From contig JAJEKV010000062.1 of the NCBI GenBank assembly GCA_021234155.1, positions 7,642,425 to 7,706,424 on the forward strand: a stretch of 64,000 bases of DNA, written 5' to 3'. The first letter of the stretch is position 1; each line of letters begins with the position of its first letter. Position numbers and translations under genes: made by a program. Below are positions 729 through 59,625 of the stretch, in pieces. The stretch is from Isoetes taiwanensis (lineage: Eukaryota; Streptophyta; Lycopodiopsida; Isoetales; Isoetaceae). The notes beneath the pieces are model-generated. The model made no database searches. It was not told the origin of the DNA and saw nothing but the letters and a program-made list of their open reading frames with translations.

Positions 729-777
729 TAAAGGATGGCTTTATGCCTAGAATAAAACCATGTTTGCATTAAATTAA

Positions 778-2560: not shown

Positions 2561-4060
2561 GGGCCATGAAACATTTTGGGCGTGTTCCACATCATGGTGT
2601 GCATGTTTAGCCTGTGAAGAGCCTGTGACAGCATTTGAAGTAATAGGGCTAAGGAACTGCCATAACATTCCTGGTTTGCAAGTTGAAAAAATATTAGAAT
2701 CTGCAAAATCAAGATTATTGGGTTTGTAGATGAGCGAAGCTTGCTTGCAAAGATCAAAACTGGAGGTTTTAACAAAATAAGGCTATACTTTGGCTGTTAT
2801 GTTGAAATAGAAAACCAACCTGCTATGTTCAATAGTTGCAGTATTGCATACAAATGCCCGCATTGCCCACTTGAACGCTGGAGAAGGCATAGAAAAATTT
2901 ATTCTTGAGCAAAAGCCCTTCGACCTCTTCATCAAAAGCTTCCTTCTCCTTTCCTCGCTTCATCGACCTAAAAAACCGGCATTTTATATGGCAAATGGGC
3001 TTGAGCCTCAAAGCAAGAACTTCGACATTGCTCTTTGCCGATTTTCCAAATGCTTTATCACCCGTATAGGCATCCTCAATCTCGGCTTGCTCTTATCTCT
3101 GAGGGTTGCAAGCGTGATTCTATGTTCACAAATTGGAACAGAGCTCTATCCGGTTCCATGGATTGAACTTAGTTAGCCAAGATTTGGGTATATGCCGCAT
3201 CGCGGATCAAACCGAACTGATACGGCCTTGAATCCGGAGACCATACTCAAGTTTTAGAATCCCAAGCATGTGGGCAAAATCCGAATCACGTAACATCCGA
3301 TTCAATTGAAGGAGGAACATTTTGAAAAACTGCCGCAATTAGCCCACTTTCCCCGGTCTATTTTACATGCAACATACCTAACACCGCGGGTAATCCCGAA
3401 AGCCAAATTGCAAGCTGAAATTGCTTAAAGGGTTAGCAAGCCTTATTAATACTATCGGTATAAGCGGTACATGCCCCCAGTTAGCATTTATCCTCGCCCC
3501 TAAAACCTCTGCAGGCTAAGAATGGATGTAAACGAATTGGCAACGAAGCCTGCCTACTCGGATCTTTGCAAACTTCGAAATTGTTTGGGTGCACAAAGCT
3601 TCGAACCCTGGTTTTATTTGATGGGTCTCAAATTCGACCTCCGAACCATGCTCGCATTGCATGGGTCTTCAAATTTGACTCGCAATCTTCAAATCCGACC
3701 CAATACGCCATGGGAAATCCAACTCTTTGATTTTTTGCTCGAAATCTACTTACGTAGAGCTACAGCTACAAATATCCGCCCACGTAATCAAAAAACTTCA
3801 AATCACACTCAGAAAACATGTTACCTTGTTTACACAACAATAGAGACTCTACGGGTATATGGAGCAAGGAGCTCGTTGCCGGAAACAATGGCCATGGCTT
3901 CAAACCTGCGCCCTGCGCCCATGTCTGCCGGAAAAGAACCGTACAAAAACGTAGATAATTCCAAAAATCAATTTTACTCTGCATTTTTGACCTGCAAATA
4001 GATATACATAATTCGAAATCGCCATTTTTGGAGCCGTTTTTTTTTTTTTTATATATAGGA
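2561..4060. other. Gene-free stretch
   Basis: Frames of 110 and 159 codons exist here on the plus strand, but neither shows a recognisable domain, a convincing start context or splice structure. I see no RNA gene. The segment is probably decayed mobile or intergenic DNA, like its surroundings. Confidence 0.5.
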
Positions 4061-4061
4061 A

Positions 4062-4180
<119 letters not shown>

Positions 4181-4184
4181 AGTC

Positions 4185-6475: not shown

Positions 6476-7879
6476 TCAAAAGAAGCTACTATATGCAGAT
6501 GACGACATTCTCTTATAGATGACATCATTCATTTGAGCGGCACTACTAACACACAATAGCTTGACACCGAACTGATGATATGTAGATCAATTTCTCTAAG
6601 ATGAAAACTCGTCATCAAAAGAGCTAAAAGTGAATTGAAGTTCTAAGTTTTGTCATCAGATGAAGTTAATGTTTTGAGTTGTCGAATACTATGAATTTGG
6701 ATTTGGCAACTAATATGCTTTTGGATCTAGCACCTCGAATAAACTTTGTGGTTGGTGTCATGTCTTCTGATATCAAGCGATTCCAGCTACATGGCATACC
6801 TTTGGAGCCTTGTTATTTTAATCAAAAACGGCAATAGCTTGGAGAGTCCATACCATATTTTGGGAGTTAAAACTACATTACTATCAATAATTTTTACAGG
6901 AAACATGATTGCTAAAGCGATCGAACAGATTAAAATAGATATTTATTTAAAGTGAAACATGAGTATCTTTGCCTTATTTAAAACTTCAGTATTTTCATTG
7001 AGTCTCTGTTCATTACTTTTATAGTAGTGTTGTTTAGGTCGGGGGTATTAGAGACAAGAAATGAGGTTTAAGGGAAATGGTTATCATTTTTTGCATGACT
7101 TTGAAATTTGTCTGAATCGTGTCAAAAGCCTTTTGTTCTAAGATAATACATGGATGTATGCGTCTTAGACAAGCTTTATGCTAGTAATTTGGAAGGGTTA
7201 AAATAACTAATCATACTTACATCAGTAGACACATATGTCTATAAAGAGGTGTCGAGGCCATGACTCAAAATTGATACAATAGGATTTAATGTGGAATTCC
7301 CTACTTAAGATACGACACTAACTAGTTAAGATACGTTCACTTGTCATGCACCGTTCAAAAGCCTATGCTGTCTCACTTAGATGGGCTATCCAAGACTAGA
7401 TGTCATCTCATTTCATCAGGACTATGACATTTAATGATCTTGTTAGATGCAAGCAGAGGGGTATCCCCCTTGCTCCCCGGCTGGAAGGAGTAACTACGGG
7501 TCGAACTCGTTCTTCCTCTGGGTTCTATCGTGTTGTTATCCACCTTGATTGGGTTCCAGAGCGTCGCGTCTATGAGCTTAATAGCATCACTCAACCACCT
7601 GCTCATGATGAGCCCGAGTGCGAATGAACTGCTGCATTCATGTATGCTATGCCTCTTATATGAGTTCTAAATTTTGTTACTACAATATTTCAAACATTCG
7701 CTAGTTATAAGTATGTAACCATAAGTGATACGTGTGATCCATCTACTTACCGCACATTTTCAATTTGGAACGCTCTTGGCCATCTTCCTTACATGTAGAT
7801 TCTAAATTCAGATAAGCATTCTCTCCTGCATGTGCAAAATAAGCACCCCGCCACGTTGTTTGAGTAAAATGACTGAACG
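6476..7879. other. Intergenic stretch, no supported gene
   Basis: One plus-strand frame of 75 codons at 7400-7627 has unusually balanced composition, but no domain I recognise. It could be an isolated exon. The rest is AT-rich with no recognisable gene. The left end of the palindrome-rich cluster that follows was not located within this stretch. Confidence 0.4.
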
Positions 7880-8009
7880 TATCAACGGTGCAAAAGTGGT
7901 CCCCACACAGCGTGTGGAACAGTCTATTTCGCACCGTAGTCACGGTGCGAAATTGCGCCCTCCAAAAATTTTGGAACTACTACTTTCGCACCATGGCGAC
8001 GGTGCGAAA
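7880..8009. repeat. Palindrome cluster 1 of the histone-H3-encoding cluster
   Basis: Two full palindromes lie at 7927-7952 and 7984-8009 and one half-site at about 7880-7896. Each full site is TTTCGCACCGT, four to six central bases, then the inverted copy ending GGTGCGAAA. The same 26-bp palindrome recurs in the two other intergenic gaps of this cluster and nowhere else that I noticed in the window. The array lies just downstream of the 3' end of the minus-strand histone-like gene. Confidence 0.9.
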
Positions 8010-8187
8010 TAGACCCTCTCACAGAATGTGGAATAACTAGTAAATGAATACACAGCCTCAATAAATAGAATAGCAAATAATTATAGAACCTCAACATTTA
8101 TTAGAAGGAGAACTAAAATGTAACCATAACGAGAAAAATATTAAAACACTCATATATTAACAACCAAAAAAGGGTTACAAAAGGCTC

Positions 8188-8838
8188 CTAAGGGAGGCAG
8201 CCATGGAAGTATCTAGCTAAGGCATAGTCCCTGTCCTGCACAGTAACACATCCTCTGTGCACACAACAGCGGACACTGTCCTCAAAAAGGCTAATTCGAT
8301 GAGCCTCTGCTGCCTCTTGCAGTATATCCAAGGCCTCTGTTTGGATTCTATTCATCTCCTCCTCCACCATCGGGACATAGTCTGGTGCTCTCTCCCTCCT
8401 CTTCTTCCTTGATTCCTTCCTCCTCTCAATGATGGCCTGCATCTCGTACCTGACCATTCTAGCGAAGGCAAGCTTGGGAATCAGAGGCTGGGTGCATGGA
8501 GCACCCTTTATCTTCTCAGGGCCACCATATCTAATACTAGGATCGCCTTCCTTTGGCTTCCGCTTATTCCCATGCTTATCTGTCTCATTGGCTGCATCTC
8601 TCTCAGCTTGTCTCCAACTAGGAACAAGCTTAGGAGGCTTTGCCGGGCCGGATCTCTTGGGCGTGGATTTCTGCTTACGCCGGGGAATGGGCTTCCTAGT
8701 ACCTGTTCCACTAGAACTGGGCTTCCCATGATCAACCTGATCCTGCTGATCATGCTGGTCCTGCTGATGCTGATCATGCTGGTTCTGCTGATCTTGCTGG
8801 TCCTGCTGATCCTGCTGATCATGCTGGTCCTGCTGATC
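8188..8838 (-). CDS. Histone H3-fold protein (3' exon of an element gene)
   Basis: The open frame gives 216 residues and ends with a stop at 8190-8188. Residues 1-40 are Asp/Gln-rich (a GATCAGCAG-type repeat). Residues 40-110 are very basic, resembling a histone tail but without the canonical H3 ARTKQ or ARKS motifs. Residues about 117-212 match the histone H3 fold: PLIPKLAFARMV aligns with the H3 LIRKLPFQRLV helix, then LQEAAEA (173-179), LFED (184-187), C and H at the expected spacing, VT (198-199), D (204) and LAR (207-209). About 25 extra residues lie between the first helix and LQEA. No ATG precedes the fold, so an upstream exon is needed. The in-frame TAA at 8839-8841 lies inside a good donor (GTAAGA, first base 8842), suggesting the frame is joined to the ORF at 9000-9587. 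The fold is certain; its role in nucleosomes is inference. Confidence 0.85.
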   Translation of the reverse strand, partial: DQQDQHDQQDQQDQQDQQNQHDQHQQDQHDQQDQVDHGKPSSSGTGTRKPIPRRKQKSTPKRSGPAKPPKLVPSWRQAERDAANETDKHGNKRKPKEGDPSIRYGGPEKIKGAPCTQPLIPKLAFARMVRYEMQAIIERRKESRKKRRERAPDYVPMVEEEMNRIQTEALDILQEAAEAHRISLFEDSVRCCVHRGCVTVQDRDYALARYFHGCLP

Positions 8839-8999
8839 TTACTGCACTTCCAGAATCTGCTGCAAAATAGGCACTAGCAGAGTCTGCTCGTGCTCTTGTT
8901 CCTCCCCCACCACTGCCAAACATTTGGGAATGCAGTCGTGGCCCCAACGTCTTAGACGGGGTAACCTGATTCAGCAGCCACTGGGCACCATGGCCCTGG

Positions 9000-9587
9000 T
9001 CAACCTGCCACAGCATCTGGATGTGTGTAGACGCCCCCCCGTGGTCCCAGCATGTAATCCAGCTCATTACACAGGAACTGGAATGGCCGTTTCTCCACGC
9101 TGGACATGGATGTCATCATCCTCGGCCACATGATATATGACCCGACGGCTTCCTCTACTGTCTCCGCTCCAGGGGTGGTGAAGGGCAGACTGGCCGTTGG
9201 ATCCAGAGCTGTGTCCACTGATACCACAATACAGTCGTCTGGAACTGGAATATTGTGGCAGACAGAGGCCTCGCGGAAAGCTCCTTCCCCAACAACCTTA
9301 CTGGAGCTCAGCAAGGAGACCCGAGTAGGAAACACGTTCGGGTTTTGGAAATATTCGTCCACACTATTATTAATGTCCTGGATGACATTTCCAAGCCTTT
9401 GCCCGAACCCTTCTGGCAGGACAGTCTCATCTACGTCCATCTGTTGGCTTGTGATTGGAATAGCTGTCTCGACGTCTGTGATGGGAATAGCTGTCTCGGC
9501 GCCGCTAGTAATGACCTCGTCAAGATTCTGGCGCTTGTCAAGCACCTCATTTTGTGGGTTTTCAGAGCTAGCGCCTTCCATGGACAT
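9000..9587 (-). CDS. Element protein with a DUF8039-like domain, probably the 5' part of the H3-fold gene
   Basis: ATG at 9587 opens 195 codons. Residues 1-60 are acidic with an internal duplication (AIPIT twice). Residues about 105-155 (PVPDDCIVVSVDTALDP... then VGSYIMWPR) resemble the domain I know as DUF8039, found in proteins of plant En/Spm (CACTA) elements. That match is from memory and is moderate. The frame closes just after a run of seven C at 9034-9040. Shifting frame there opens about 80 more codons (IQMLWQVDQGHGAQWLLNQV and onward) that look more protein-like and lead to the GTAAGA donor at 8842. The likely intact product is therefore one protein with an acidic N-terminus, the DUF8039-like domain and a C-terminal histone H3 fold. 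The homopolymer shift may be real decay or a sequencing error. Confidence 0.6.
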   Translation of the reverse strand: MSMEGASSENPQNEVLDKRQNLDEVITSGAETAIPITDVETAIPITSQQMDVDETVLPEGFGQRLGNVIQDINNSVDEYFQNPNVFPTRVSLLSSSKVVGEGAFREASVCHNIPVPDDCIVVSVDTALDPTASLPFTTPGAETVEEAVGSYIMWPRMMTSMSSVEKRPFQFLCNELDYMLGPRGGVYTHPDAVAG

Positions 9588-9672: not shown

Positions 9673-9856
9673 TAGTAGCCACGGTGTGAAATGGTGTCAT
9701 GCGCATGCCGTGGAATAGCTGTTTTCGCACCGTAGCCACGGTGCGAAATAGGGCAGTCCAAAAACTGCCGACGTCGTGTTCTCGCACCGTAGCCACGGTG
9801 CGAAATCGGGCAGTCCAAAAACTGCCGACATCCTGTTCTCGCACCGTGGCTACGCT
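9673..9856. repeat. Palindrome cluster 2 of the histone-H3-encoding cluster
   Basis: Full copies of the TTTCGCACCGT palindrome lie at 9723-9748 and 9781-9805, with half-sites at about 9673-9691 and 9838-9856. The flank gggcagtccaaaaactgccgac is also duplicated, so part of the array is a tandem repeat of about 58 bases. It fills the gap between the 5' end of the gene at 8188-9587 and the 3' end of the gene at 10056-11541, the expected position for a promoter or boundary element. Confidence 0.9.
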
Positions 9857-11672: not shown

Positions 11673-11970
11673 ATTCGCACCATGGCTATGGTGCGAAAAT
11701 AAGACTTCGATAATTTATTCTATGTACAATTTCGCACCGTGGCTACGGTGCGAAAATACCCCTTCCATTTTTTATGCTATGTACAATTTCGCACCGTGGC
11801 TACGGTGCAAAAAGACCCCTTTCATTTTTTATGCTATGCACATTTTCGCACCTGGCTACGGTGCGAAAATAGCCCTTCCATATTTTATGATATCCACAAT
11901 TTCGCACCGTAAGTACGGTGTGAAAATACATCCATATTTTATGTTGTACACAATTTCGCACCGTAGCTAC
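11673..11970. repeat. Palindrome cluster 3: six copies in a ~60-bp tandem array
   Basis: Copies or near-copies of the TTTCGCACCGT palindrome lie at about 11673-11700, 11728-11755, 11786-11811, 11844-11868, 11898-11925 and 11953-11970 (half-site). The spacer ccattttttatgctatgtac is repeated with each, giving a period near 60 bases. Mismatches often hit both arms differently. The array fills the gap between two co-oriented genes, upstream of the gene at 10056-11541. Confidence 0.92.
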
Positions 11971-38200: not shown

Positions 38201-38632
38201 TTATCTTATACCCAACAATTCTTTGAACAGATTAAGCTTTCTTTCTGTCATTGCTTTGGTGAATATATCTGCTGCCTGATGTGCGGTTTCCACATACTCC
38301 ATTGTAATTACATTGTTTGCAATAAGATCCCTTATAAAGTGAACATGCAACTCGATGTGTTTGGTTCTCTCATGGTGCACAGGATTTTTTGCTATGGCAA
38401 TACAACTGAGACTATCAGTGCGCAATACTGTTGGATGATCTTGAGACACACCTATTTCTGTCAAAAGCCTTCTCACCCATACTATTTCTTTAGCTGCTAA
38501 CGAAGATGCTGAGTATTCTGCTTCAGCTGACGACATGGCAACGGATGATTGTTTTTTGCTTCTCCATGATATTGTACCTCCTGCAAGAACTAGAGCATAA
38601 CCAGAGCAATACCTTACACCCCTTTTTGTCAA
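38201..38632 (-). pseudogene. Copia RNase H domain fragment
   Basis: The fragment encodes SGYALVLAGGTISWRSKKQ, then SSAEAEYSASSLAAKEIVWV, RTDSLSCIAIAKNPVHHERT, KHIELHVHFIRD and the terminal HQAADIFTKAM, which is the standard C-terminal RNase H of Copia Pol. It follows the protease part with a frame change at about 38615-38632, where FDKKG meets YCSGYA. The missing portion is a single internal deletion. Confidence 0.93.
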
Positions 38633-39956
38633 ATCTTAATTCATATCCTAAGTCAACTAACTGACTTACTGAAATAAGGTTCTTATACAAGCCTGGTACA
38701 CACAACACATCGGAAATATTGACTCTCTTTCCTTGCAGATCGAACAATTGAAGCATTCCTTTCCCGGTTACGCTCTGCAAGTCTCCATTTCCTAACTGTA
38801 CATGGCTCAAGTGTTTACTAGCATGAACATCATCTAGAAAATCAGTAGAATTAACTACTGATCGTTCAGCTCCACTATCAACTATAAATTCATCAACCTT
38901 GTTGTTAGAATAATAATCATCACATGTTGATAGTATAACAGGTTTTACCTCTTGATCATCTTGATTCTTAGCAGAATTATCTTCAACAACTTCTTGAGTT
39001 ACATTAACTCTGGCTGCTCCTCTTCTTCCCCTTCCCCTTGACGTACTACCTCTTCCCCTCAAAGCAAAGCTTGCTCTATCAGCACTCCATCTTCCTCGTC
39101 CCCTATCAAGATTTTTGGGACTAGAACAATTTGTGGAAATGTGCCCCATACCACCACAATTATAACAAGACATCTCTTTATTTAATTTTGGACAACTTGC
39201 TTTTAGATGCCCCATTTCGTGACAATAAAAACAAGGACCCATACTTCTTTGATGTTTAGCCTTTGACTTCTCAACAAACAAGACCTCAGGACTTTCTTCT
39301 TCCTCATTACTCATTTTTCTTTGCTCAAGCTCTGTCCTTATTAATCTTTCTGCTTCATCACGATTTTTTATTGTGGTTCTTATTAATGTGGACAACATAT
39401 CATACCTTGAAAACGCACGGGCTATTGCCAGAACCTGAAATTCATCACTTAATCTTGCTCCCGCTGCCTCCAAATCAGCAAAAATATTATCCAGTTTTGA
39501 AAAAAACTCTGTGATACTTTCACTTTCATTATATTTCAACTGTCTTAATTCTCTGTCTAAAACATCCAACTGTGAAGATGATTTTCGTTCATATTTATTG
39601 AGAAGGTATGGCCACATTTGCTGAGGATTCAATCCTCTCATTCTAAGCAAGATACTAGGCCCAACTTTACATGCAATAATCCCTCTGGCTTCTCTAAGTT
39701 TTTGATCAGAATATGTACTAGAACTTTCAGTCTTACCAGAACCTTCTGCAAGCTTGCTTTCCCCTTCACCGATTTTCATCTTTCCCAGTTTCGCAAGGAT
39801 CTCCTTTAGGTCCTTTCCCTCTGGCGGCTGCACTATCTCCATCAATCCTTCTGCATTCAAGACCTCCTGAATTTTCTCTTTCCAGACTTGAAATCCTGCA
39901 CCACCATTATATACTTCTATTGCACTAAGAAGCGCAGCACCAAATCTAGTTGCCAT
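38523..39956 (-). CDS. Copia gag-protease polyprotein, truncated
   Basis: ATG at 39956 lies ten bases inside the primer-binding site. Of 477 codons, residues 1-240 form the gag domain (DUF4219/UBN2 type: LDRELRQLKYNESESITEFF). Two CCHC zinc knuckles follow (CFYCHEMGHLKASC and CYNCGGMGHISTNC), then an Arg/Gly-rich stretch. Next is the aspartic protease with active-site FIVDSGAERSV, where DSGA is the Copia form, and the downstream LGNG and VPGLYKNLISVSQL signature. After LRFDKKG the frame crosses the deletion junction and continues as nonsense. The gag and protease parts look intact. They could form particles only if integrase and polymerase are supplied by another element. Confidence 0.93.
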   Translation of the reverse strand: MATRFGAALLSAIEVYNGGAGFQVWKEKIQEVLNAEGLMEIVQPPEGKDLKEILAKLGKMKIGEGESKLAEGSGKTESSSTYSDQKLREARGIIACKVGPSILLRMRGLNPQQMWPYLLNKYERKSSSQLDVLDRELRQLKYNESESITEFFSKLDNIFADLEAAGARLSDEFQVLAIARAFSRYDMLSTLIRTTIKNRDEAERLIRTELEQRKMSNEEEESPEVLFVEKSKAKHQRSMGPCFYCHEMGHLKASCPKLNKEMSCYNCGGMGHISTNCSSPKNLDRGRGRWSADRASFALRGRGSTSRGRGRRGAARVNVTQEVVEDNSAKNQDDQEVKPVILSTCDDYYSNNKVDEFIVDSGAERSVVNSTDFLDDVHASKHLSHVQLGNGDLQSVTGKGMLQLFDLQGKRVNISDVLCVPGLYKNLISVSQLVDLGYELRFDKKGCKVLLWLCSSSCRRYNIMEKQKTIIRCHVVS

Positions 39957-39979
39957 TATTTAAGTTGCTCTGATACCAA

Positions 39980-41979: not shown

Positions 41980-42680
41980 ATCACCTGTATGACAGCCCAA
42001 GATCTATTGCGAGGAGCCAACTTTGCATCCGCGAGAGCGTGCATTTTGAGGATTTCATTATGACCTTTCTAGAAATCTTTGGCGGTTGAGAAGATTAACC
42101 ATGCCCGAACAGTTTACTCTGTTCCAACGTGGGTCCCGATCTGCGGCAAATATTATCGCCAATGCCCTTGTTTACGTGACTATTGGAGGAAATGACTACA
42201 ACAATTATCCTCTGCGCAACTCCGGTCGGAGGGCAATTTAGCCCCTGGTCAATTCAACGCCTTTCTCATCTCTAATTTGAGATCCCAACTAGTGGTAAGC
42301 ATTTGTGAAAAATAATTAACAAGAATGCTAAACTCTAATAGTCTCATTGTTTACGTATTTATTTTTTCGCCCGACAAATGTACAACTTGGGTTTTGGCGG
42401 CGTCTCTGCCAAGGTGTGAATTCTGAGATTTTTTTGGGGGGTAACTCTTCTTTGTACATTTAACTTTCGGACAAATTGTCCTTTTGGCTTCTCAAAATGT
42501 CTTCATATGAACGTAATTCAACTAATGGCAAATGTGAACATATTGAGAGTACTGACAGTATTTGTTTCATTATGTCATCTGTTATATTGTTTGTTATGAT
42601 GTCTCTAATATTATGTTTTCTTCTTACTACAGGCACATATCTGGTCAGCAAACAGCAGGAACACGATTGCAAATTAAACG
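41980..42680 (+). pseudogene. GDSL esterase/lipase fragment, disrupted by the TTAA transposon
   Basis: The pieces in order are LLRGANFASA (about 42006, family pattern LLRGVNYASA), SAANIIANALVYVTIGGNDY (about 42139-42200, the block III GxND motif), a frameshift, LAPGQFNAFLISNLRSQLV with a donor (gtaagc) at about 42298, and YNLGFGGVSAK (about 42379). After the acceptor (ctacag, 42633) the frame SKQQEHDCKL runs up to the transposon's TTAA. It continues on the other side at 50788 as IRNFVQDALL, the GDSL region before the catalytic DxxH. The first block (GDSL serine) and the DxxH pair are not found. These enzymes are secreted esterases. This copy is a decayed captured fragment. Confidence 0.72.
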
Positions 42681-43012
42681 GGAGTGTTGCATCACTCCCG
42701 TTTCAAAGATTCCCTTTAAAAAAACACCAAGTTTCTAAAATAAGCCTTTTTTTTATAGTTGTTGAGAATTTCTAGAGGTTCGCATTTTTTTTATGCCATT
42801 TTGGCCCATCATTAGACGAAAACTTTGTATTTATGAAACAGAAATCATAAAAATAGCGAAATTTAGGCATAGACTTGAAGAGACTGAAAGCATTACAAAA
42901 AAACAAGCACCAGAATAGAAAGGAAAAAAAAGTACTATGTTTTTATTAAATTGTTGTACATCAATATTGAAGATTCATTGTAATAAGTAATGATAATTTA
43001 AATATGCAGTAG

Positions 43013-46000
43013 TCAAAGATCTACATCATAGTCCTCCTCATTCTTTTTTTGCTCTCGCCATCTCGTCCTTACATTCTATCTCTCCTTTCTTTGGAGACTT
43101 GAGTTTTTATCCTCCTTGTCCTCTGGAATGGTAGCTAAAGCTACTTCTTTAAGCTCTGCAAAGGTTGCCTCATCGTCTAGTGAGCCGGAGAATGGAGGTT
43201 TGTATCTCGAGGGCGTTAGTTTAGCATAATCGGATGAAGACTTGGCCCCTAGCTCTTGATGTTCATCCGTAAAGTAGGTAAAGCGGCCGGTCTCATCTTC
43301 ACAAAATTAACAACATCCTTATCAATATCCACGGCTACAGTTCGCGGCCCTTCTTAAGTGCACATGCGATAGTAGTACGAGAACCGGAGAAAGCATCAAG
43401 CACCCAATCTCACGGGCGAGAACATGTCCGGGAGATGGTTGATGAGCTTTGTGGTTTACGGTAGTGATTCACAATCCCCGCCTTGTGCGGTTGGGTCCCT
43501 ACAATTTCTCGTAACAACTTCTTTGGAAACTCAAGGGCGTTTGAGAAGTTTTGGCCAGGGCGGTGTTGAAGTGTTCCATGGTCCTCTTCCCATCAAAACT
43601 CCAATAAGCTACATGAAGGTACTCTACCTTGCTAAGCAACCTTGGTCCTCCACCATGGTAGTTGATGTTAGTTTTGTACCTAGTAAAACATTTAAAGTGA
43701 TGTTTACTTAGCAAAAACAAGAACACACTTCCGAAACGAGAAGCGAGGAAATACTATTCCTAATACACTACGTAAGCAAAGAGAAAAGTAATCATTTCGG
43801 AATAAGACTTACCGCACAAAGGTTTTCATATCCCACTGAACCCGGAGAACCAAAGTGGTTTTAAAAGGCTGATTCTACCAAGCCCGGTGCATGCTCGAAT
43901 GGAAAGTAACTAAACGCCAATGTTTAGCCGTTGTGATCTGCTTGATTCCATCAATAAAAGCATTAAACTCTGAAAATTTGAAGGGCTGGTCGTCATATCT
44001 GCTGTCTTTAAGCTTAAACCCGTAGGGAAGATCAGCAATAACCAAAGTGAAGTCCTGTGGCTTAACCGTTCCGACTAGCTTCGTGCAATCACCATGAATG
44101 ATTGAATATAAATTGTTTTGATCAAACATGCAGAATCTCTCGTAGTCGGATGGTTCTAACTCAACAGTTCTTACGTCCATTAACGACCTCTCTTCCCGTG
44201 CTGTTCTAACCAAATGCATGAAGCCCTCGGGAAGGTCTTTGTTTTTCTTTTTGCTCTGAGGAAAAACATGACAACAACTGTAAGGAGATCGTGTGTGCAA
44301 AGGCGAGGAATGTTGAGAGTACTTACCCAGCCCTCAAAATTTGGTGCATATTGCACAATTCGCTCGTCAGAAGTGGCTACAGGGTAGAGTTCCTTGCACC
44401 TTTCCCATGTCTCTCGTTTAGTTGCTCCATCAAACATGTTTGACATGTTATGACGTTCTTTTGGCTGCAAGGCGTTAAGGAAACAATGAGTTAGAAAGTA
44501 AGAAACAAGGCAAAGAAGAAGAAAAACAAATAAAAGTCAAGCTAAATGTATTACGGAATACAAACCGTTTTAGCGGTGATGTTACCTCTAAACAAAATGC
44601 ATTGTGTATTCCGGAATACACATTGCTTCTCTGAAGAAAGCAATGTGTATTCTGGAATACACAATACTTTTTTAGAAGAGGACATGTGTATTCCAGAATA
44701 CACATGGCTTCCTTTACATGGGCAATGTGTATTCCGGAATACACATTGCTTGTCTCTAGAAAAGCATTGTGTATTCCGGAATACACAGTGCCCATGTGAA
44801 GAAAGGTATGTGTATTCTGGAATACACTATCTACCCCGATGTTTTTGGGACTCTAACGTCTAAAGAGTAAAGTTTGTGGCAGAGATCTTACTTGTGCAAT
44901 TCCTTTGACATTTCTTCTAGGCTAAACTCCTTGTCAACAACTTTTTGGAGAAGCCTCTCCAAAATCTCTGTGTCGGAGAAGCCCTGCATTTCTCGCCAGA
45001 CGGTAATGGTCATTTCTTTTTTGGGCACGTCAGATGATTTTTTCTTGGCTGTCTCCTTGCCCTTGCTCTTTAACTCCCCTCGTTCGAACATTGAAAATAT
45101 CTCGTCTTGGAGTTCCCAAATCTGTTCAAAAAGATTTCACGTGAGATAGTTGATTTGTTATTCTGGAATACGTTTTGTGCTTACCTTGCCATCTCTAAAA
45201 GCTAATTGAAACCAGTTATCGTGGCCAATAAGAGACTGCCTTTTATTGGCCTCGTCATATTTTAGGCAGCATTCAATGGCACACGCCTCCTTAAGCTCCA
45301 AGGAAAACGCTGGCTTCTTCAGGTCCTCACCGTACTTTTCCTTGAAAATTACGTACTCCCTGTGCATGAACCGGATCTTGTCGTGCCAAGCTCATCTTTA
45401 GTTTATATTAGTTATCGGCATTGTGGGTGTTGGCAAGCGATTTTTCGCTTCTTCATCGGTAAGACCCGCGATGAAGCCAGTATTGAGGAGGGCGGAGAGG
45501 TACCTCGGGTTCTTCTTCTCTTTGTAAAGTTGCCTTCTTGCCTTGAAGCTGTGATTGCCTCCCAAGACGTAGTGAGTGTAGATCTCTGAGTTATCACTAT
45601 CATAATCCTGGGGGGTTTTGCACTGCTCCCTGTCAACAAGGACAACTATTGGGGCCACATGAGCATTTGGATTGCTCCTTATTCTGTCTTTCAGGTTCCT
45701 CAAGTGATCTGCGTAAATTTTGCGAACCTGAAGTGGCCTTTCACCAGCTTCATTTTTTGGTGGAAGCTTCATACAAGTGACTGGCAAATAAATAACACCT
45801 TGCACAAACTTGTGCAGGTTTATCTCCTCCATTTTTTCAGATGTTTTATCAACTTTTTTTTTTTTTGATGATAGCAACACCGGGTGCTTTGCCTTTCCCC
45901 TTCTTCTTCTTTTGTGCCTCGGGGCATCTTACATTTGCAATCAAAGCCGTTTGCTTTTTTTTAGGCTCTTTAGCGGCAACGGTTTGCCTTTGCCGCTTTG

Positions 46001-46597
46001 GTGGTGGTGACGGTGGCCTTTCGTCGGACACTGATGGACTCCCAGATGGTGATGCACTGCTCGGGCTATCTGGGTTATCTTCCCCTTCTTCTGACTCGCT
46101 GTAGGGGAAGTCCTCGCTCGTTGTGCTTCGAACGTAGTTAATGATAGAACAGAGCGACTTCTTGTTCAGGTAGTGAGAAACATACTTGTAAAGAGGATGT
46201 GGATTTACTTTCACCACTCTAAGGTATGATTCATCAACATGAATAAAGCCTTGGGATGTCTGAAAAGAAAATCTCCCTTCCTGACCGGACCAGCTACCTC
46301 ACTGACGGCCTGGATGGTGCCCATGCAGACAAACTCCCTGTCATCGTACCTTTTGGTTCCAGGGCTCCGACAGACATGTAGAAAAGTCAGGGTGCTGTAC
46401 TTTCCTGAAGTACCCCTTGTAAAGAACCATTGAGTCTGGAAGTTTTCGTAGATAGCTGGCGCAGCTGACTCCTCAAGCCTTCTCTGTGGGTGCGGTTTTT
46501 GTACGACTTTGAGGGGCCTTTTCTGTTGTTTCTTGCTGTTGTCTTGTCTGTGCAAATTGTTTGTAAACACGACCATGTTAGAGAAAACAGTAGCCAA
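43013..46597 (-). CDS. ParB-like domain plus beta-class N4/N6 DNA methyltransferase, multi-exon, frameshifted
   Basis: Domain order is readable on the minus strand. 46597-46264: charged N-terminus and a conserved segment (FVCMGTIQAVSEVAGPVRKG, then GFIHVDESYLRVVKV after a one-base shift). 46140-45850: acidic then Lys-rich linker. 45820-45440: ParB-like segment (RPLQVRKIYADHLRNLKDRI, PIVVLVD, YVLGGNHSFKARRQL). 45380-44892: helical region. 44464-44327 and 44255-43812: SIIHGDCTKL and the motif IV DFTLVIADLPYGF. About 43402-43340: motif I VLDAFSGSRTTIACALKKGR. The tail follows to 43013. Motif IV before motif I is the permuted beta class of DNA amino-methyltransferases. Introns at 45122-45184, 44465-44891 and 44256-44326 have good splice sites. 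Breaks include a homopolymer shift at 45850-45862, shifts near 45430 and 43890, and a TAG at about 43065. The 5' end is unresolved. Confidence 0.82.
44547..44828. repeat. Palindrome array inside a methyltransferase intron
   Basis: Seven near-perfect copies of GTGTATTCCGGAATACAC, one about every 40 bases, lie at about 44547, 44603-44622, 44644-44663, 44685-44704, 44726-44745, 44768-44787 and 44809-44828. Centres vary between CCGG, CTGG and CCAG. The spacers differ from one another, so the palindromes are conserved as sites and are not units of a simple tandem repeat. They lie within the 427-bp intron 44465-44891. A degenerate copy lies in the next intron (45158-45176). Confidence 0.93.
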
Positions 46598-46788
46598 AAA
46601 CTATTCCAGAATACAAAATGTCTTGCAAAAAGGGAAAAAAAGGGCAAAAAGAGGACAAAAATGCCAAAAAAAGCACTGCAATCTTGACAAAAAAACTGGT
46701 CTAAACAAGCTTTAAATGCAGCAAAAACGCCTAGATTAACTAAAAATCGCATGGAAAAGTAACCTCTTAAAACCTAAAAACACGAAAG

Positions 46789-46845
46789 TGTATTCCGGAA
46801 TACACTTTCGCCTTCGACTGAAGGCCAAAGTGTATTCCGGAATAA
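46789..46845. repeat. Two more palindromes between the divergent genes
   Basis: GTGTATTCCGGAATACAC occurs at 46789-46806, extended to a 28-bp perfect palindrome by flanking CGAAA/TTTCG, and a second, one-sided copy lies at 46830-46845. Weaker halves (tgtattccgaat, gtgtattcgaaat) continue at about 47080 and 47150. This is the region that should hold the shared promoters of the two divergent element genes. Confidence 0.88.
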
Positions 46846-47389
46846 GAAACAGACATGCAAATGATTGTACGTTGTACTTTCTTACTGACCTGTCCATGTT
46901 CTCTCTATGTAAATCGGAATACAGTCTCTGAATATTATAATCGAGTATTTGGCGTGGCTTGAGCTCGAGACTGAATACGCAACCCGAAGGCGTAGAAATT
47001 TCCTTTTAAAGGTATCATTTTCGTCTTGCTCTTTTTCTATGTGATGCGAATACGTTCAGCTTTACTATCCTACTCTTGTGTATTCCGAATAGCTTTTATT
47101 TTGACTTTCACTTGATTAGTCTTGGAACTTCTACTTGTACTCACGTTGGCGTGTATTCGAAATAAGAAAAGCTGCATTACGTAAAAGTTTCTCAAATCTC
47201 TTTACTATTTTGCGGTTGTCAAGATGACCGAACCGCCGTGAACAAGCTTCCACCACCTTTTGTTGTCTCAAGCTCGTGCGGTTCGAGGACACGCTTGGGA
47301 ACAACGTCATTTCTAGTGAAGACCGGCATTCTCCGAGTCCTACCTGCTTCATCGTTGTTGCTTCTCAAGACACACCGAGTCCGACACAA

Positions 47390-50249
47390 ATGACTTCCAC
47401 CACCCTTCCAACCGTCACCAAGTCCTCAGGCGGCCTGCTGGCATCTCCTTCCAAAGAATCACCACTAGTTGGGAGCGGGTTGCCACCACCCTTTGTTCCA
47501 TCCCGGACTGCGAAGCTCCACAACAAAGGTCTTTGAAGAACAAGCTACCCCCCTTTATAGTTTAAGCCCCTTACGTTGCAAACATACAAGGAACCGCGAG
47601 AAAACGTAAGACCGTGAGATTCACTACAATTTCTCTCACCGTGACTTCACTACAAATGAGGACGGCGGCTCCGATGCACTCCTCTTCACACAACAACGGT
47701 TGTGACACATGGATTTGCGAGAATTCCAGTCGCTCTAAAGGAGATGTTTGCAAGAACTCCTTTTCAAGATGGTACAAGAACGGTGATGCCACAACCTCTT
47801 ATGGGCCATCGCCATCCTTTAACACTTGTACCCCGCCTATTAGGGAACAACTTCACGTGGTCTGCTTTTCCTCTACAAGCACACCACTTTCGGGACGAGG
47901 AAGTCACCCCCCAGTAGAAGTTTCATCGGAAGATGAAGACACCAACGAGGAACAAAGAGATTACATGTTCTCAAGCCAATCTTCAAAGAAATTCAAGGTG
48001 GATTTTGGTTTGAGGGCGTGCTCCTCTCAAGAAGAAGAAGAAATCTTATGGATGAACACAAAATGAGGAGACTTTTGAGAACTAAATGCTACTCATTGGG
48101 TTGCATCAACAATTTAATATGGCTAAATTACGAAAGCATTAGAGACAACTACTGTTCCATGACATTGGCGGACGAGAATGCCTACTTAGCTTATCATGTA
48201 AGACCGGACCAAGCAACACCTTCTTGCACTACATTAACCGTCAAGAAGTTTGCCGTAAATGCTTTATGGTTGTCCACCGTTTAGGGTCCACCGGGAATGT
48301 CCAGAATACACAAAAGACCGGACAAAAATCCAAAGAATCGATGATCATTGTGGGCCAAGAAGAGTTGTAACCATGCATGCCCTTCTTCTTTGTGTCATGG
48401 ATGGAGAAATATTTTAGAGAAACATGTGAGAAGCTACCTAACAAACAACATGTATCATTTAACGATAACATCACCAAAAAGATGTTTTTAATGAGTACAA
48501 AGAGACTTGCACTCGGCTTGAGACATCTCTTACTCACACTTCACCGGTGTGGAAAAGTGAATTCGGTCTTGTGAAAATTCCTAGAAAACATAGAATGTCC
48601 GTTTTGCTTTCGAGGTGTCGCGAAATTAAAGAGTCAACGAGAAACCGCAAAAGGCAGAGGTCGAAAGAAGTAAGCTCATGTTCTCCAATCTCTCACTTAT
48701 TTCGGAGAAAATGTTTTGACCTGATTTCTTCTACGATATTGTGCAAATGAGAACCTTGCCCGGACATCGTGAACAACAAGCGTGAGAGAGAGAAAGAAAG
48801 CTTGCCAAGCATAGAAAAAAAAAAGCTCTTGAACGTCCAATTTGCAATACATGTCATTTGTGATTGATGGAATGGACCAAAAAACAACTCTACCACATTT
48901 CTTGAACATTCCTAAGGATGTGCGGAGGAATGTTTTGTTAAGGTCCACCTTGTAGGAGCTATGGTCTTCAAAGGAAGTCTAAAGTGCAAAGTATTTTTGA
49001 CGTATCAAACTTGCATGGTGACCCGAACCTCACAATTACAATTCTTAACAAGGTCCCGTATGTCGAGCAAGAGCAATTACCACCGTGCTTTATCCGCAAC
49101 TTGACAATACTACAAGGGAGAACAAGAATCAAACACTCTTTAAGTCATCATTGTTAGTGGAGCTAGGGATCTTTAGAAAAGTGAAGCTTCGGTTTCTTAC
49201 TTGTAGGCCACACTCATGATCCAGATTGACCAAATGTTAAGCAGATTTTACGGCGCCTTAGAAGGAAGAAGGCTTTCATCTTCCTTCTTTAGTTCTAATT
49301 ATTGAAGATTCTTACACTCCTACTCCATTAATTCGATCTTCTTAAAGAGACCGCTGATTTTAGAGAGTTTGTTTTCTCTCAACGTTCAAACGAGAGAACA
49401 AGGCGTGAACAAGTTGAATGATCTCACCTTCGACATCATATCAAGTTCTACTTGAAGGATGGCCAAAGCTTCTTCTGAGGGGAAGAAGTATACCACAACT
49501 AAGGACCTGAGTCCACCCGGGGATTACGCTTCCTTAAATATATTCCGGACACTTCCTTCATAGAAGCGTCTTGAACAACTTCCTCTCAAAAATCCTAAGG
49601 AGTCCAAGCGGAAGAAAAGTACCCCGAGTCATCCTTAAAAGCCATTGAAAATGGAATTTCCTCGAGCTTTAAGTACTTCTTAGAAGAAGATCGGATGTGG
49701 TGGAGTAATTTCTTTCTCGAACAGAAAATTGTTGTACAAAATATAGCTCTAAGACGGTTGCAAGAACCATTTCAATGGCCTAACACCTTCCATCAACCCC
49801 AAAGACCAAGGGTCCAAGCGATTACTACATTTGCACCGGCGGTAGAAGACGAGGAGGACCGAGTCATGTACCTCGGACCAAGGCGCAGAATGAGCCTCAA
49901 GGTAATATCCGCGAAATTACCAAAGGTATGCTAATTGCTCTTCCGACCGAGGAGGATGACAAAGGTCGGCCACTTACGGATAGCAAAAGTGCTTGACCTG
50001 ATCAAGGAGGAAGGCTTAGTCACTAAACTCAAGATTCATTGGCTTGCAACACGCTCAGAAAATGCTTTTGAAGGTAGATATGAGTTAGAAATGAGAAGCC
50101 AAGGAAAAGGGAGAAAGTCCAAGAAGGTGGGTTGTAGGGACGAGCTGAACCTTAATGACGTGACTATTTTGTGCTATGATTTTAAATTGAAATCTGACAA
50201 TCGTCTACGCCAGAAGACTATCAATTTGCTTAAAAAAGCTTGTATTTAA
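47390..50249 (+). pseudogene. DDE-like transposase (DUF7869-like), frameshifted
   Basis: A series of frames covers about 950 codons. An N-terminal Ser/Thr/Pro-rich and acidic region (47390-48066) comes first. A segment with CSMTLADENAYLAYHV (about 48155) follows. At 48851-48901 is MSFVIDGMDQKTTLPHF and at 49202-49257 are VGHTHD and, one shift later, IDQMLSRF. The pair IDGMDQ ... VGHTHxDID is the hallmark of a eukaryotic transposase-like family I know as DUF7869. That name is from memory. The C-terminal part (49965-50249: RIAKVLDLIKEEG, KLKIHWLAT, then LNDVTILCYDF) resembles the small beta domain that ends such proteins. Several one-base shifts and stops interrupt it, so the copy is probably inactive. 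It is divergent from the methyltransferase gene and ends about 530 bases before the right TTAA. Confidence 0.75.
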
Positions 50250-50783
50250 GAAGATGATGAAGAAGGTGGTGACAATGCTTCACCGATGCGGTGATAGTGA
50301 TGAGGAAGATAACTCAAGCACTTCCTCGGATGATGATTGAAAGAAGTGAAGGTGATGACGATGGCATAAATGAACATGAAGACGTCCTGGATCCCTCTCT
50401 CATCACTCCTCACACTTTTGCACATAACTGAGTCTTAGAAAAACACTGTAAATTTTGATGTGAATATGAAGATTCTATCTTCAAATTTTGAGAATACTAC
50501 AGTTTCAATTACAGACTTACTTCAATTTTTTGTTAAATATTTTATCCACTGAAATTAGAGTTTCTCTCTTAAAACATACTTTAAGAACATTCTTTTTGCT
50601 AAGAAAAGTGACACTTTAAAAAGTCAATTCCTTAGTTGCAAAAAAAATTAGTCATTTTGGGGTCAAAATAGAATTTCATGCATCTTTTTTTTTTAAACCT
50701 CATTTTACCCCCTTTTTTGTAAAAAAAAAAGGGAATCTTTGAGGAATATTCCTTTTGCTCTCGTTTCAATGATTTGCTCCCGT
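50250..50783. other. Right non-coding end of the TTAA transposon
   Basis: AT-rich, with homopolymer runs. It contains ggaatattcc (about 50738), which is related to the internal palindrome, and the subterminal repeat gctcycgttt twice before the terminal TTAA. Confidence 0.7.
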
Positions 50784-50787
50784 TTAA

Positions 50788-53700
50788 TACGCAACTTTGT
50801 TCAGGATGCATTGCTCACAAAAGATAATAGAAAATTGGCTATCCCTTTCTTGCTATTGATTGCACAACAAAGGTCAAAGTAAAAGGCTTACTAGCTATTA
50901 AATGATGTGTATTTCATAGGCTTGGTGTGATCTCATACACGATGTCTTCATTTTTAGCATTATTACAAGTGCCAATGTCGCTCATTATGAAGATGGTGAG
51001 TGAAGCGTTATGATAGATGCCATGGAGCCTTTGTTACAATTTGTTGATTTCTCAACCGTTGCTTTTTCCCCAACAATAACATATGCACATTAAGTGGCTT
51101 ACATCTTGTTACGATACACACAAGTAAATGTTGAGGTTTTGCAACGTTTGCATTTTTCCTCGTGTTTAGCATGGTTGATCACATTATATTGTGCAAGATT
51201 TGTTCAGACATTGCATGTTCTCTTGGCATTTTGGGCTGCGACAAGATTTATTTACCAATCTTAATATGAGTTTAAAATCTTGAAACTAGGAGTATGTGGA
51301 ATTTGATGTGGGCTGGGGACGGGGGTAGCAATGGTTAAAGTTTGTGAGGTAGTTTATATTAGTGACGATGTTAGTAGTTGGAGTTGCGTTGATCATGTCT
51401 TTACATGCATTCCCAAAGAAGTGTTTCACCTAATGTCTTTGAATAATTTCCGTTGCATGGCAGACAGATTTCTTTTAGTTCTTCATTAGCGAATTGTTGT
51501 CGTCGCATTTTAAAACCGTGGTACCTTAAGGATTTTAAAATTAGAATTATGTTTCAAGTAACGTACGGTATTTTCATAAGAAGGTAGTTCTTATACAATG
51601 TAAATGATAGGGCGTCAGGAGTGGGTTACAGTAATTTTGCCCTAGGTTGATGTGATACTGCCCCAGCTGAAATATCCACCCGATTGAACCCATTGGACAT
51701 GGGTGACTATGATCTTGCCTTGGATTGATGTGTTATCACCCCTCCAAGGAATTGAACTGGTTGGGTGCAACGAATGAGTGACCATAGTCATCTTGCTTTG
51801 AGTTTGTTTGATGCCTCTATCTAAAATAGTGTAACGAGTGACCATAATCAATCTTGCCTTCATATGTGCAATACCCCTTTTTTAGAATATTGCAAGGTTA
51901 ATATTGCCTTGAATATGTGTGATAGCCTCCATCTAGAATATTGCAAGGTCAACCAAAATTAAACCTACTCTATTACCATCCCATCCAAAACATGCCAAGG
52001 CATTGTCTCTAGAATGCACATAGTCCAATAGGCATAATGAATGGGTGACCATAATCTTAGAAGGCATTGTTTAAGGTAGAACCAGGAATTGAAATTTGGG
52101 GGTGGCAATCGAAATTTGGGGGTAGGGGGGACCCCGAATTCAAAAAAATTCTAAAAATTTTCAATAGCAGAAAAATGTTTTCGGCACTTTTTCAGGCCAT
52201 TTCCATCAAATTTTCTAGGGTTTCTAGGAAAGTACACTATAAATTTGTGTATTTATGGTAGTCTTAAATCTAAGGGCGCATCCCCATTAGGCCGTTATCT
52301 AGGCTTGACTTTGCCACATGGCAAACCCAGCCAGGAAAAAATCATTCCCATTACCTTCCAAGGCACCAAAGTTCTGCTGACGAGTCCAGGACAACTTCCC
52401 TTTCTTAAGCCTCAAGGACTTAGACGTGTTGGAATTGGGGACTGCTAATTTTGAGCAACAACTTGGACTTTGAGATGGTATTTTCTCTTTTCCATATCTT
52501 TATGGCTAAAGTGGTTATATACTTAGCTTGCACAGCCGCAGATTGTTGATGACTTAACGTCTGTGTGTATGAAAGTCATTTTCAATAAAGATTTTGTGGC
52601 ACGACAACATGGTATTGTTGGCTTGCATCATCATCTTGCATTGCATTTCATCTTCAGGTAAGTTGTGTTTATGGTTGAATGTTTCTCCAGTTTTGTCTCT
52701 AATCTCGAGGTCCTTTTGTTTGCAGAAATAGGTGGTCGGTTAAGCATATTGAAATGAATAAAAAGGCTTGCAAATATGTTATTTCAGCCATATGTTTTAA
52801 AGGGATGTTTAAGAGGAGAGCGGCGGAGAGGGTTTGTCCATGTTGATATGAATACTTTTTTTTCCATGTATGGAACACTTCTTATGGACGATTCTTAGAT
52901 GCATTGTTGTTTCTGGAGCTCTTCTGCTGGAGAAATTAGCAAGAATGTGTGGTTCATGGAATAATTTAAGGGCTAAACTTAGCTATTTGGCGATTTTTTA
53001 CCACATTTTCAAAATAATTTGGCTAAAGTAAATGGAAAAAATTGGGAAAAAAATAATAATTTTAGCTTAACTTTTTTCGGGACTGCATCAACCTTGGAGC
53101 TCTTTAGCCAAACGCTAGAAAGTAAGAGAGTGAAATTTTGTATTGTTTAGCTAAACTATAGAAACTTTTAGAATGAATTTCGGGCCAGTTTAGCTAACAT
53201 CATTCTAATTTATATGAAATATAGGATCAATAGTTTAGTTTCTAGCATTATGAATTAATTTGAGTCCTAGACTTTGCTAGTTAGCATTATTTTAGAATGT
53301 TTTCACAAAGAAAATGACCAAAATAAATGGAATATATTGAGAAAAAGTATAGTAATTTGGCTTAATATTTTCTGTTGGTCATACCATAGAAATTTTTGGG
53401 TTGATGTTTGGGTTAGTTTAGCTAAACGCTAGAAAGTATGAGAGGAAAAATGTGTAGAGTTTAGCTAAACCACAGAAAGTTTTGGGATTAATATCAAGCA
53501 AGTTTAGCTAAAGTCATTCTGGCTAATAAGAAATATGCGATTAGTAATTTATTCCCTGGTGTGGTTATAGAAGCTTCAGACAATGAGTTTTTGCTGATTT
53601 GCCTAGGTTAACTTTGGCCTTATTATCTGCTTTCCTTCCAGATGCATGCAATTGAGAGGCACGTTATTTATTGTTGGAGACCTGAAGTCTCTATTTGCGT

Positions 53701-57679: not shown

Positions 57680-59625
57680 TTGTATATATATAATTATTCT
57701 ATGTGTCCATGGGAAACGATGTACCCATGGATTGGTTACATATTCAAATCAATCTAAGCCGTCTATTAGGGGGCCAATGAGGTGGCACAACTAGGGCCTT
57801 AGGATCTACATGGGGTCATGCATGGGGCATGCACCATGCCTCTAGACCATCGGATCAAGGGGGAAGGCAAAATCATAGCCCTTGATTTTTTTAGGGAAGG
57901 TGCAAGGAAGGTCCCTAAAGGTGCTTTCTGGTGTGGCCAATCTCGGCCCTTGGATCAAAAAGGGGAGGAGAAATCTTGGCTATTAAATTTTTTATTAAGT
58001 TGCAATTTATTTATTAAAGGAGTTGTGGCATCCTCATTTAATAAAAAAAGTAATGAGGTGGCACCAACATTTATTGAAGGAATTTCGAGGAAGCTTCTTT
58101 TTTGCAATTATCTTCAAACGCCCGTAACTTGCAGCAAAGGGGTCAGATGATGGTGGGGCCTACGCCATTGGATTCCTCTCATCGAGAGCTTTCCAATGAG
58201 TAGTGTTTTGATATCGTTTCGTTGTAGTTGAAGCGAATATGATCGAATACTAAGAATCTTCTTGGAATCTTGGAATTTTATGGATCTATGGGAATTTAAG
58301 AGAATATAGGGGAATCTTCATAGGATCTTAAAGAATGTAAAGGAATCTCAATAGAATCTTGAGGAATCTATGAGAATCACAAGAGAATCTTTTAGAATCT
58401 AAGCGAATCTTTATAGAACCTTTGAGAATCTAGGGGAATCTTGATAAAATCTTGAAGAATCTAGGGGAATCTTCATAGATTCTAAGGGGATCTGAGAGAA
58501 TTTACATAGAAACTTGGGGAATCTAGAGGAATCTCAATAGAATTAGGGAATCTATGGAAATCTTAAGAGAATCTTATGAAATCTAGCAGAATCTAAGCGC
58601 ATCTTCGTAAAGTCTTTGAGAATCTACGTGACCTTTAATGGAATCTCGGAGAATCTAGGGGAATGTACTTAGATCTAATGGAATCTAGGGGAATATACAT
58701 AATATCTAAAGGAATCTAGGGGAATCTACATAAAATCTATATATAATCTTAGAGAATATAGAGGAATCTTTGTAGAACATTAAGAATCTAGAAGACTCTT
58801 TGTGGAATCTTGGGGAATCTTCCACATTGGATGTGTTTTGCAGGGGAATCTTCATAGAATCTACGGGAATTTAGGAAAATCTACATAGAATCTTGGAGAA
58901 TCTAGAGGAAACTTGGGTTAATCTTTGAGAATCTAGAGGAAAGTCTTGAGAATCTTAAAGAATCTATGAGAATCTCAAGAGAATGTAGAGGAATCTAAGG
59001 GAATCTAGAGGAATCTCAACAATATTAGGGAATCTATGGGAATCTTAAGAGAATCTTATGAAATCTAGCAGAATCTAAGCGCATCTTTGTAAAGTCTCTG
59101 AGAATCTACGTGATCTTTAATGGAATCTTAGAGAATCTACGGGAATGTACTTAGACCTAATGGAATCTAGGGGAATATACATAATATCTAAAGGAATCCA
59201 GGGGAATCTACATAAAATCTATATATAATCTTAGAGAATCTAGAGGAATCTTTGTAGAACATTAAGAATCTAGAAGAATCTTTGTGGAATCTTGGGGAAT
59301 CTTTCACATTGGGTGTGTTTTGCAGGGGAATCTTCATAGAATCTTTGGGAAATTAGGAGAATGTACATAGAACCTTGGAGAATCTAGAGAAAATTTGGGT
59401 TAATCTTTGAGAATCTAGAGGAAAGTCAAGAGAATCTTAAAGAATCTATGAGAATCTCAAGCGAATGTAGAGGAATATAAGGGAATCTTCGTGAAATCTT
59501 CGAGAATCTAGGGAAATTTTTTCTAAGCCTTGAAGAATCTAAAAGAATCTTTATAGAATCTTCACTAGATGGCTCAAAATTTGTACACTCCCTCATAGTA
59601 CAATCACTTGTATATATTATATTAT
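57680..59625 (+). mobile_element. Minisatellite-bearing repeat element, copy 2
   Basis: The element starts near CTTGTATATATATAATTATT, followed by a unique region. That region contains CCAATGAGGTGGCAC, GCATGGGGCATGCACC and GGAATTTCGAGGAAGCTTC, which are the reverse complement of motifs at 5905-6400. Then come about 1.3 kb of GAATCTAGGGGAATCTTCAT repeats (58230-59570) and the end CTCATAGTACAATCACTTGTATATA. The array has a higher-order structure: a 480-base block recurs (for example 58563 and 59042; gcaggggaatcttcatagaa at 58840 and 59325). It has no coding capacity. Confidence 0.8.

Follow-up and report, generated by a model that had tools for sequence, protein, structure and literature searches.

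Transposons of the lycophyte Isoetes taiwanensis that pair a transposase with an intron-bearing ParB-like methylase gene and clustered palindromes

A stretch of 64,000 nucleotides of the Isoetes taiwanensis genome (assembly GCA_021234155.1, contig JAJEKV010000062.1, positions 7,642,425 to 7,706,424; hereafter the window, to which all coordinates refer unless stated otherwise) contains a transposon with two divergent genes, one for a transposase with a DUF7869 domain and one for a protein that joins a ParB-like region to a predicted DNA methylase. A reading of the window made from its sequence alone had proposed a transposon that encodes a transposase along with an intron-bearing ParB-methylase, and this is now supported by further copies, their shared ends, their target-site duplications, and the co-occurrence of both genes. 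Elements of the same plan form three families, with about 70% DNA identity and 37-66% identity between their methylase proteins, and clusters of palindromes lie in or beside the methylase gene. Taking these features together, we lean, with caution, towards the reading that the ParB-methylase binds the palindromes of its family and thereby marks its own element.

Results and discussion

Copies, ends, and target-site duplications

The genome (1,658,258,908 bases in 1,110 contigs) was searched with the left 1.7 kb of the element (1727 bases), and 40 of 1,711 preliminary candidates were scored. The resulting 42 match rows correspond to 40 genomic places, window included, and hence to at least 39 relatives. 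The whole query is spanned at 36 places, again including the window (3 of these to base 1725 of 1727), and the 35 outside the window are 88-95% identical to the window copy. The 20 best-scoring of the 39 other places (L009-L028) were compared in detail.

This comparison shifted the boundaries of the element. They had been placed at 42674 and 50787, with TTAA as the target site, but the true ends lie 14 bases further out. On the left, the 14 bases outside TTAA are identical in 19 of 20 copies, L021 being the one that deviates, and on the right in 10 of the 14 copies with that end located (variants in L012, L017, L019, and L021). By its shared ends and flanking duplications, the whole element covers 42660..50801 (8142 bp, unstranded). 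Its left terminal inverted repeat (AACACGATTGCAAATTAAACGGGAG, 42660..42684, plus strand) includes the TTAA of the sequence-only reading and begins with the 14 shared bases; the right one (AACAAAGTTGCGTATTAAACGGGAG read inward, 50777..50801, minus strand) was recognized by comparison of copies. The ACGGGAG/CTCCCGT inverted ends noticed earlier are present. On either side stands an identical, unstranded CAGG, at 42656..42659 and 50802..50805. Such 4-bp duplications are exact in 13 of the 15 family-1 copies with both ends located (window counted) and vary between copies, those outside the window being TAGC, GGCC, AGAT, TTAA, AAAA, TAGG, TTTG (twice), TTGA, AATC, TGTG, and TGAA. The two inexact cases are L020 (GATG/GATA) and L021, where the left end is altered and the duplication would fit ATAT if a loss of two bases is assumed.

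A TTAA-specific transposon of the piggyBac or Kolobok kind would account for the TTAA at both of the edges first proposed, and for the TTAA duplications of L013 (family 1) and of the family-2 element L041. Against it, the shared bases run 14 positions past TTAA at either end of the element, and of the 13 exact family-1 duplications, 12 have another sequence; we regard TTAA as target site as refuted for family 1 by this outer extension and the variable duplications, and give this type of transposon next to no probability.

Besides the window copy, both ends were located in 14 copies; these are 8.2-8.7 kb long, and all 14 have sequence of both genes between these ends. The co-occurrence expected by the sequence-only reading was thus found in 14 of the 20 copies compared, and in three families, while the TTAA flanking that it had coupled to this did not hold. 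In 7 of these 14 copies (L013, L016, L018, L019, L020, L022, and L023), the middle of the element (about element positions 3250-4680) is too divergent to align but lies between flanks that are conserved. L013 and L023 deviate in the N-terminal region of the methylase and keep the ParB part. These copies possibly represent two subfamilies or recombinants.

The transposase and a probable Sola1 affiliation

The transposase gene (47224..50431, plus strand) was delimited by reading frames and its profile match, and is frameshifted in the window, where frameshifts break both genes of the element. The DDE-like gene reported earlier is confirmed: its read-through matches DUF7869 at E 2.1e-51 among the Pfam profiles. 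The domain, with approximate limits 48851..49460 (plus strand), contains D (IDGMDQ), D (QLDN), and HD/D (GHTHDQIDQM in other copies). Structure prediction for this region was poor, with a predicted local distance difference test score (pLDDT) of 44.1; the order of helices and strands would suit an RNase H-like fold. A sequence search of the PDB with DUF7869 returned chance matches only (best E 0.11). In the open-access literature searched, DUF7869 is not named, and Sola combined with lycophyte or moss terms gave no report.

Sola elements are described, in the portion of PMC10741241 available, as encoding a DDD transposase, and as a superfamily with 4-bp duplications, inverted repeats, and sizes of mostly 2-9 kb that is known in a moss. 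The present element has the 4-bp duplications, the inverted repeats, and the size range in common with this description (PMC10741241, same portion), the DDD transposase named there being a point of difference. The duplications recur in the other families (TTAA in L041, GTAG in family 3), as do terminal inverted repeats, which begin with AACA in all three. The element is a cut-and-paste DNA transposon, most probably of the Sola1 kind as judged from published descriptions.

A beta-class methylase gene with introns

The gene divergent from the transposase consists of six exons on the minus strand, with five introns inferred from splice signals and reading frames. Putative exon 1 (46890..46897), of 8 bp (ATGGACAG), was inferred from splice signals and frame only and is the least certain. 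Exon 2 (45185..46547) encodes the N-terminal region and the ParB-like domain (GGNHSFKARRQL; LTDEEAK...HNADNEY in other copies), and is followed by exon 3 (44892..45121; reading frames and splice signals) and by a linker, exon 4 (44327..44464), the frame of which was judged against L010 and L042. Exon 5 (43813..44255) contains motif IV, DLPYG, and is supported by frames, splice signals, and an alignment to CcrM; exon 6 (43013..43679) contains motifs X and I (VLDAFSGS) and the C-terminal tail, supported by frames, GT-AG splice signals, and PF01555. By our reading, four internal intron positions (after FRDGK, KELHK, and FEGW, and between VW and YKTN) are shared by L041 and family 3, which favours genuine introns.

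A methylase read-through of several copies matches N6_N4_Mtase (PF01555) at E 6.4e-17 (62.7 bits against a cut-off of 26.7), in agreement with the methyltransferase proposed earlier for this divergent multi-exon gene, and PHROG 67, DNA methyltransferase, at E 1.1e-27. Its best solved structure is CcrM (E 8.9e-10). About 17 residues of this query (exon 4, PKERHNMSNMFDGATKR) are off the ancestral frame, judging from L010 and L042, which leaves the methylase and ParB parts unaffected. The order of motifs, DLPYG (IV) before VLDAFSGS (I), was correctly seen in the sequence-only reading; CcrM has it as well, and for the beta class it is ordinary and not an unusual permutation. By homology, the protein is a beta-class N6/N4 DNA amino-methylase of predicted activity. 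A phage search with the methylase matched 382 records, of which the ten listed match the methylase part only, at 23-28% identity, and a search of viral contigs found no relative. An Rfam scan of the window gave nothing at gathering score.

Three families and genome-wide pairing

Family 2 is represented by L041, which has 69-74% DNA identity to family 1 over the three longest matches. Its element covers positions 697-9069 of that locus (8373 bp) with a TTAA duplication; the aligned methylase exons are open, and there is one transposase stop outside a presumed intron. When the flanks are joined in silico with a single TTAA, a continuous frame of 368 residues runs over the junction. The interrupted frame appears to be PPR-like, judged by eye from its motifs, and the position of a nearly intact element inside an otherwise open PPR-like gene suggests recent movement.

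Family 3 (L029 and L042) was taken as the best DUF7869 match of the genome, at a stage when its methylase was still unseen. It carries a divergent ParB-methylase (37-66% protein identity, depending on the piece) along with a transposase at 40-52% identity. The element is 9,466 bp long, has the ends AACAACGTCTTAAATTAAACGCAC and, inward from the right, AACAACGTTCAAAATTGAATGCAC, and is flanked by its GTAG duplication.

Genome-wide, there were 9,902 preliminary DUF7869 candidates and 1,443 for N6_N4_Mtase, which are candidates and not confirmed genes. From each set 150 were scored, all of them above cut-off, which gives at least 150 methylase matches. These 150 by 150 matches contained 24 methylase/transposase pairs at most 15 kb apart, 22 of them divergent (0.41 expected). 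The excess of DUF7869 candidates is large enough for methylase-free relatives of these elements to exist, and many DUF7869-related elements may be of that kind.

Selection on both genes

Selection was estimated by gene part between family 1 and L041, from nonsynonymous (dN) and synonymous (dS) divergence. The C-terminal core of the methylase is 95.5% identical over 134 codons, with 10 nonsynonymous and 58 synonymous differences (dN 0.033, dS 1.59, ratio 0.02). The ParB part is 87% identical, with a dN of 0.096 and proportions of 0.09 nonsynonymous against 0.83 synonymous differences (synonymous sites saturated). For comparison, the DUF7869 part of the transposase is 86% identical (dN 0.087, ratio 0.08), and its middle 79% (dN 0.128, ratio 0.10). 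These estimates indicate that the methylase C-terminal core and the ParB-like part are under purifying selection; by dN they are constrained about as strongly as the transposase or more, which is not the case for the rest of the methylase.

Clustered palindromes in and beside the methylase gene

The palindromes form two unstranded arrays in the window. Array A (44546..44827), in methylase intron 3, has seven copies of GTGTATTCCGGAATACAC with 0-3 mismatches, six of them in a register of 41/42 bp and the first 58 bp off. Array B (46599..46847), in putative intron 1 and upstream of the main methylase exon, has sites at 46599 (5 mismatches), 46788 (0), and 46830 (3). A degenerate palindrome (45156..45173, unstranded; 6 of 18 bases differ) lies in intron 2. 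Among the 11 window sites with at most 5 mismatches, 10 are in introns 1 and 3, one is between the genes, and none is in an exon.

Both arrays recur. Across 21 family-1 copies, at least 2 sites are present in A in 19, in B in 15, and in both in 14; in L041, nine GTGTATTCCGGAATACAC-type sites, spaced by 41/42 bp, lie between the main methylase exon and the transposase. Among distances below 200 bp between neighbouring sites (21 copies and L041, which are related and not independent), 64 of 135 are 41 bp and 39 of 135 are 42 bp. Genome-wide, the 18-mer GTGTATTCCGGAATACAC has 2,585 exact copies, against 0 for its reversed control; among the 50 listed sites, a palindrome lies within 4 kb of 4 of the 5 listed methylases and 1 of the 2 listed transposases on those contigs.

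The GTGTATTCCGGAATACAC-type palindrome is absent from the family 3 sequence, where we found nine sites (at most 2 mismatches; five exact) of a different palindrome, GTATGAATTCATAC, against 0.06 expected for a motif that was itself picked after inspecting this sequence. Three occupy the intron that follows the ParB part, and the others are found between this part and the transposase. The 14-mer occurs 64 times in the genome, against 11 for its reversed control, and of the 50 sites listed, 20 have a listed methylase or transposase match at most 10 kb away. The layout of five sites is repeated at four loci (including L029/L042), and a fifth locus shows four of them.

One could see in these arrays hairpin-forming satellite repeats, spread by slippage and lacking a protein partner, with the methylase as a passenger. 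The number of array B sites, which ranges from 0 to 8 over the 21 copies (eight in L019), would fit this. The palindrome cores hold, however, while the linkers diverge, and the outer bases covary: in 103 units, positions 1, 3, and 5 are complementary in 100, 99, and 95%, though the bases themselves vary. Moreover, family 3 has its different palindrome in similar places, and purifying selection acts on the methylase core and ParB part. We thus consider a pure satellite origin improbable.

It is less far-fetched, if still unlikely, that the binding partner of the palindromes is the transposase or a host factor, with no connection to the ParB-methylase. The palindromes of families 1 and 3 differ, but so do their transposases, which would suit a transposase site. 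The location of the sites speaks against this: the element ends are separated from the nearest array by 1.9 kb on the left and about 4 kb on the right and have inverted repeats of their own, and all nine window sites with at most 3 mismatches lie in methylase introns 1 and 3 (intron 1 depending on the uncertain exon 1). The pattern fits recognition of element-specific palindromes by a dimeric protein encoded on the element. The ParB-methylase is their likeliest reader, the sites being in its introns and close to its start, at a distance from the ends on which the transposase acts.

A possible self-marking system

Under the reading that we favour, dimers of the ParB-like part, or of the recognition region that belongs to the methylase itself, would bind the palindromes along a single face of the helix, 41/42 bp corresponding to about four helix turns. 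This binding would load the methylase onto its own element, on which it would place N6-methyladenine (6mA) or, less likely, N4-methylcytosine; 6mA is the preferred guess because of the kinship to CcrM. The mark might keep the promoters and introns of the element open against host silencing, report the state of replication to the transposase and the promoters, or both. Each family would use different palindromes and so mark its own kind. That the specificity of the ParB-methylase has co-diverged with the family-specific palindrome clusters, each family marking only its own copies, has in our estimate a chance just short of even.

6mA has been reported alongside permissive chromatin in unicellular eukaryotes, which makes self-marking against silencing plausible, while its presence in plants has been questioned by reports (both from the portion of PMC12695648 available). 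The main rival to this role is timing by replication state: the methylase could be an autoregulator or replication timer, in which methylation of the palindromes switches both genes, as Dam controls IS10, without countering silencing. The strong sites in methylase introns 1 and 3, and not at the element ends, would suit such a switch, and control of IS10 by adenine methylation appears as a title among the references of PMC3627910, as far as that source was available. Nothing separates autoregulation from anti-silencing marking, and we rate it as possible, if rather doubtful.

Several results weigh against the self-marking reading. The ParB-like label of the sequence-only reading stood in part: TIGR03764 (ParB) matches in 4 of 5 sequences, with a best E of 1.6e-4 that is far under the model's cut-off, and the region also resembles DUF6551 (E 0.014) and phrog_723 (E 0.029) weakly. 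Its fold prediction was poor (mean pLDDT 44.5), and a PDB fold search with this model gave nothing at E ≤0.001, a ParB-like protein ranking 34th at E 3.0; when the ParB-like alignment was used in a sequence search of the PDB, there were likewise chance matches only (best E 0.17). Conservation of the methylase falls below that of the transposase in the motif IV exon (75% identity, dN 0.17, dS saturated) and in the N-terminal region (49% identity, dN 0.50), and dS is saturated in most exons, so that no ratio was formed for these. Outer positions 2 and 4 of the palindromes are complementary in 55 and 71%, and positions 6 to 12 in 21-60%, of the same 103 units, which were chosen by palindrome similarity, inflating core conservation, and come from kin copies, so that they are not independent. 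Within the family-3 cluster, sites are about 100-115 bp apart instead of 41/42, and arrays may grow through tandem duplication, which itself preserves spacing. Finally, in 6 of the 20 copies (L009, L014, L015, L024, L025, and L028), the right end was not located within the stretch compared.

Other features of the window

An open reading frame at 8188-8838 (minus strand) resembles the C-terminal half of histone H3 (Pfam Histone, E 1.9e-5, just under the cut-off), its best solved match being the centromeric H3-like cnp1 (E 8.6e-9). Associated with it are 7930-8006, 9726-9802, and 11676-11809, and neighbouring minus-strand open reading frames have no match above cut-off. Nearby are seven copies of the palindrome CGCACCGTNGCNACGGTGCG in steps of 57 bp (0.00 expected), and the locus may be a further mobile element that combines an H3-like protein with a palindrome array of its own. 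A Copia-type gag and the start of pol were found at 38523-39959 (minus strand), and GATTC-type satellite-like repeats at 4696-5884 and 58292-59488, on opposite sides of the window and seemingly in inverted orientation to one another.

Comparison with known systems

The methylase shares its motif order and its FSGSGT motif I with CcrM and other beta-class adenine methylases, CcrM being also its best solved match. It differs in its motif IV, DLPYG instead of DPPY, in the ParB-like fusion and the introns, and in belonging to a eukaryotic transposon, and it scores far below the NCBIfam cut-off for CcrM. Bacterial ParB acts with parS palindromes, and the element similarly combines a ParB-like domain and clustered palindromes on one mobile DNA, binding here being putative. 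Its palindromes appear unlike parS. A further difference is the fused methylase, and no ParA-like family was among the general profile matches of the element's proteins, no search aimed at ParA having been made. Restriction-modification systems offer a comparison for changing specificities, which here would serve transposon control or protection in a vascular plant.

Methylases on DNA transposons are also known from the Mariner elements of giant viruses, which carry methylase and endonuclease genes. Their transposase and methylase are of other types, and a ParB domain is not mentioned in the portion of PMC3627910 available. In the open-access literature searched, two sources cited in PMC12477816 being outside that scope, we found no report of ParB-methylase transposons in land plants, nor of palindrome arrays, and the palindrome rows seem new. 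If the self-marking reading is true, they would provide a concrete, testable address for the mark, and the elements would constitute a self-addressed DNA-marking system in eukaryotic transposons of a vascular plant.

The closest likeness is to Sola1-1_Ec32 of the brown alga Ectocarpus, a DNA transposon of 21.5 kb that encodes a protein with ParB-like and N4C/N6A methylase parts on the strand opposite the transposase, as here. The comparison is one of descriptions, and the present elements are smaller, at 8-9.5 kb. Palindrome arrays are not mentioned in the portion of PMC12477816 available, which does already suggest binding and modification of the transposon by the protein of this type that it encodes, so that the idea of self-marking is not new. 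ParB-methylase transposons, mentioned so far from algae in these partial sources, are now found in many copies in a lycophyte, where the methylase appears to have long been under selection.

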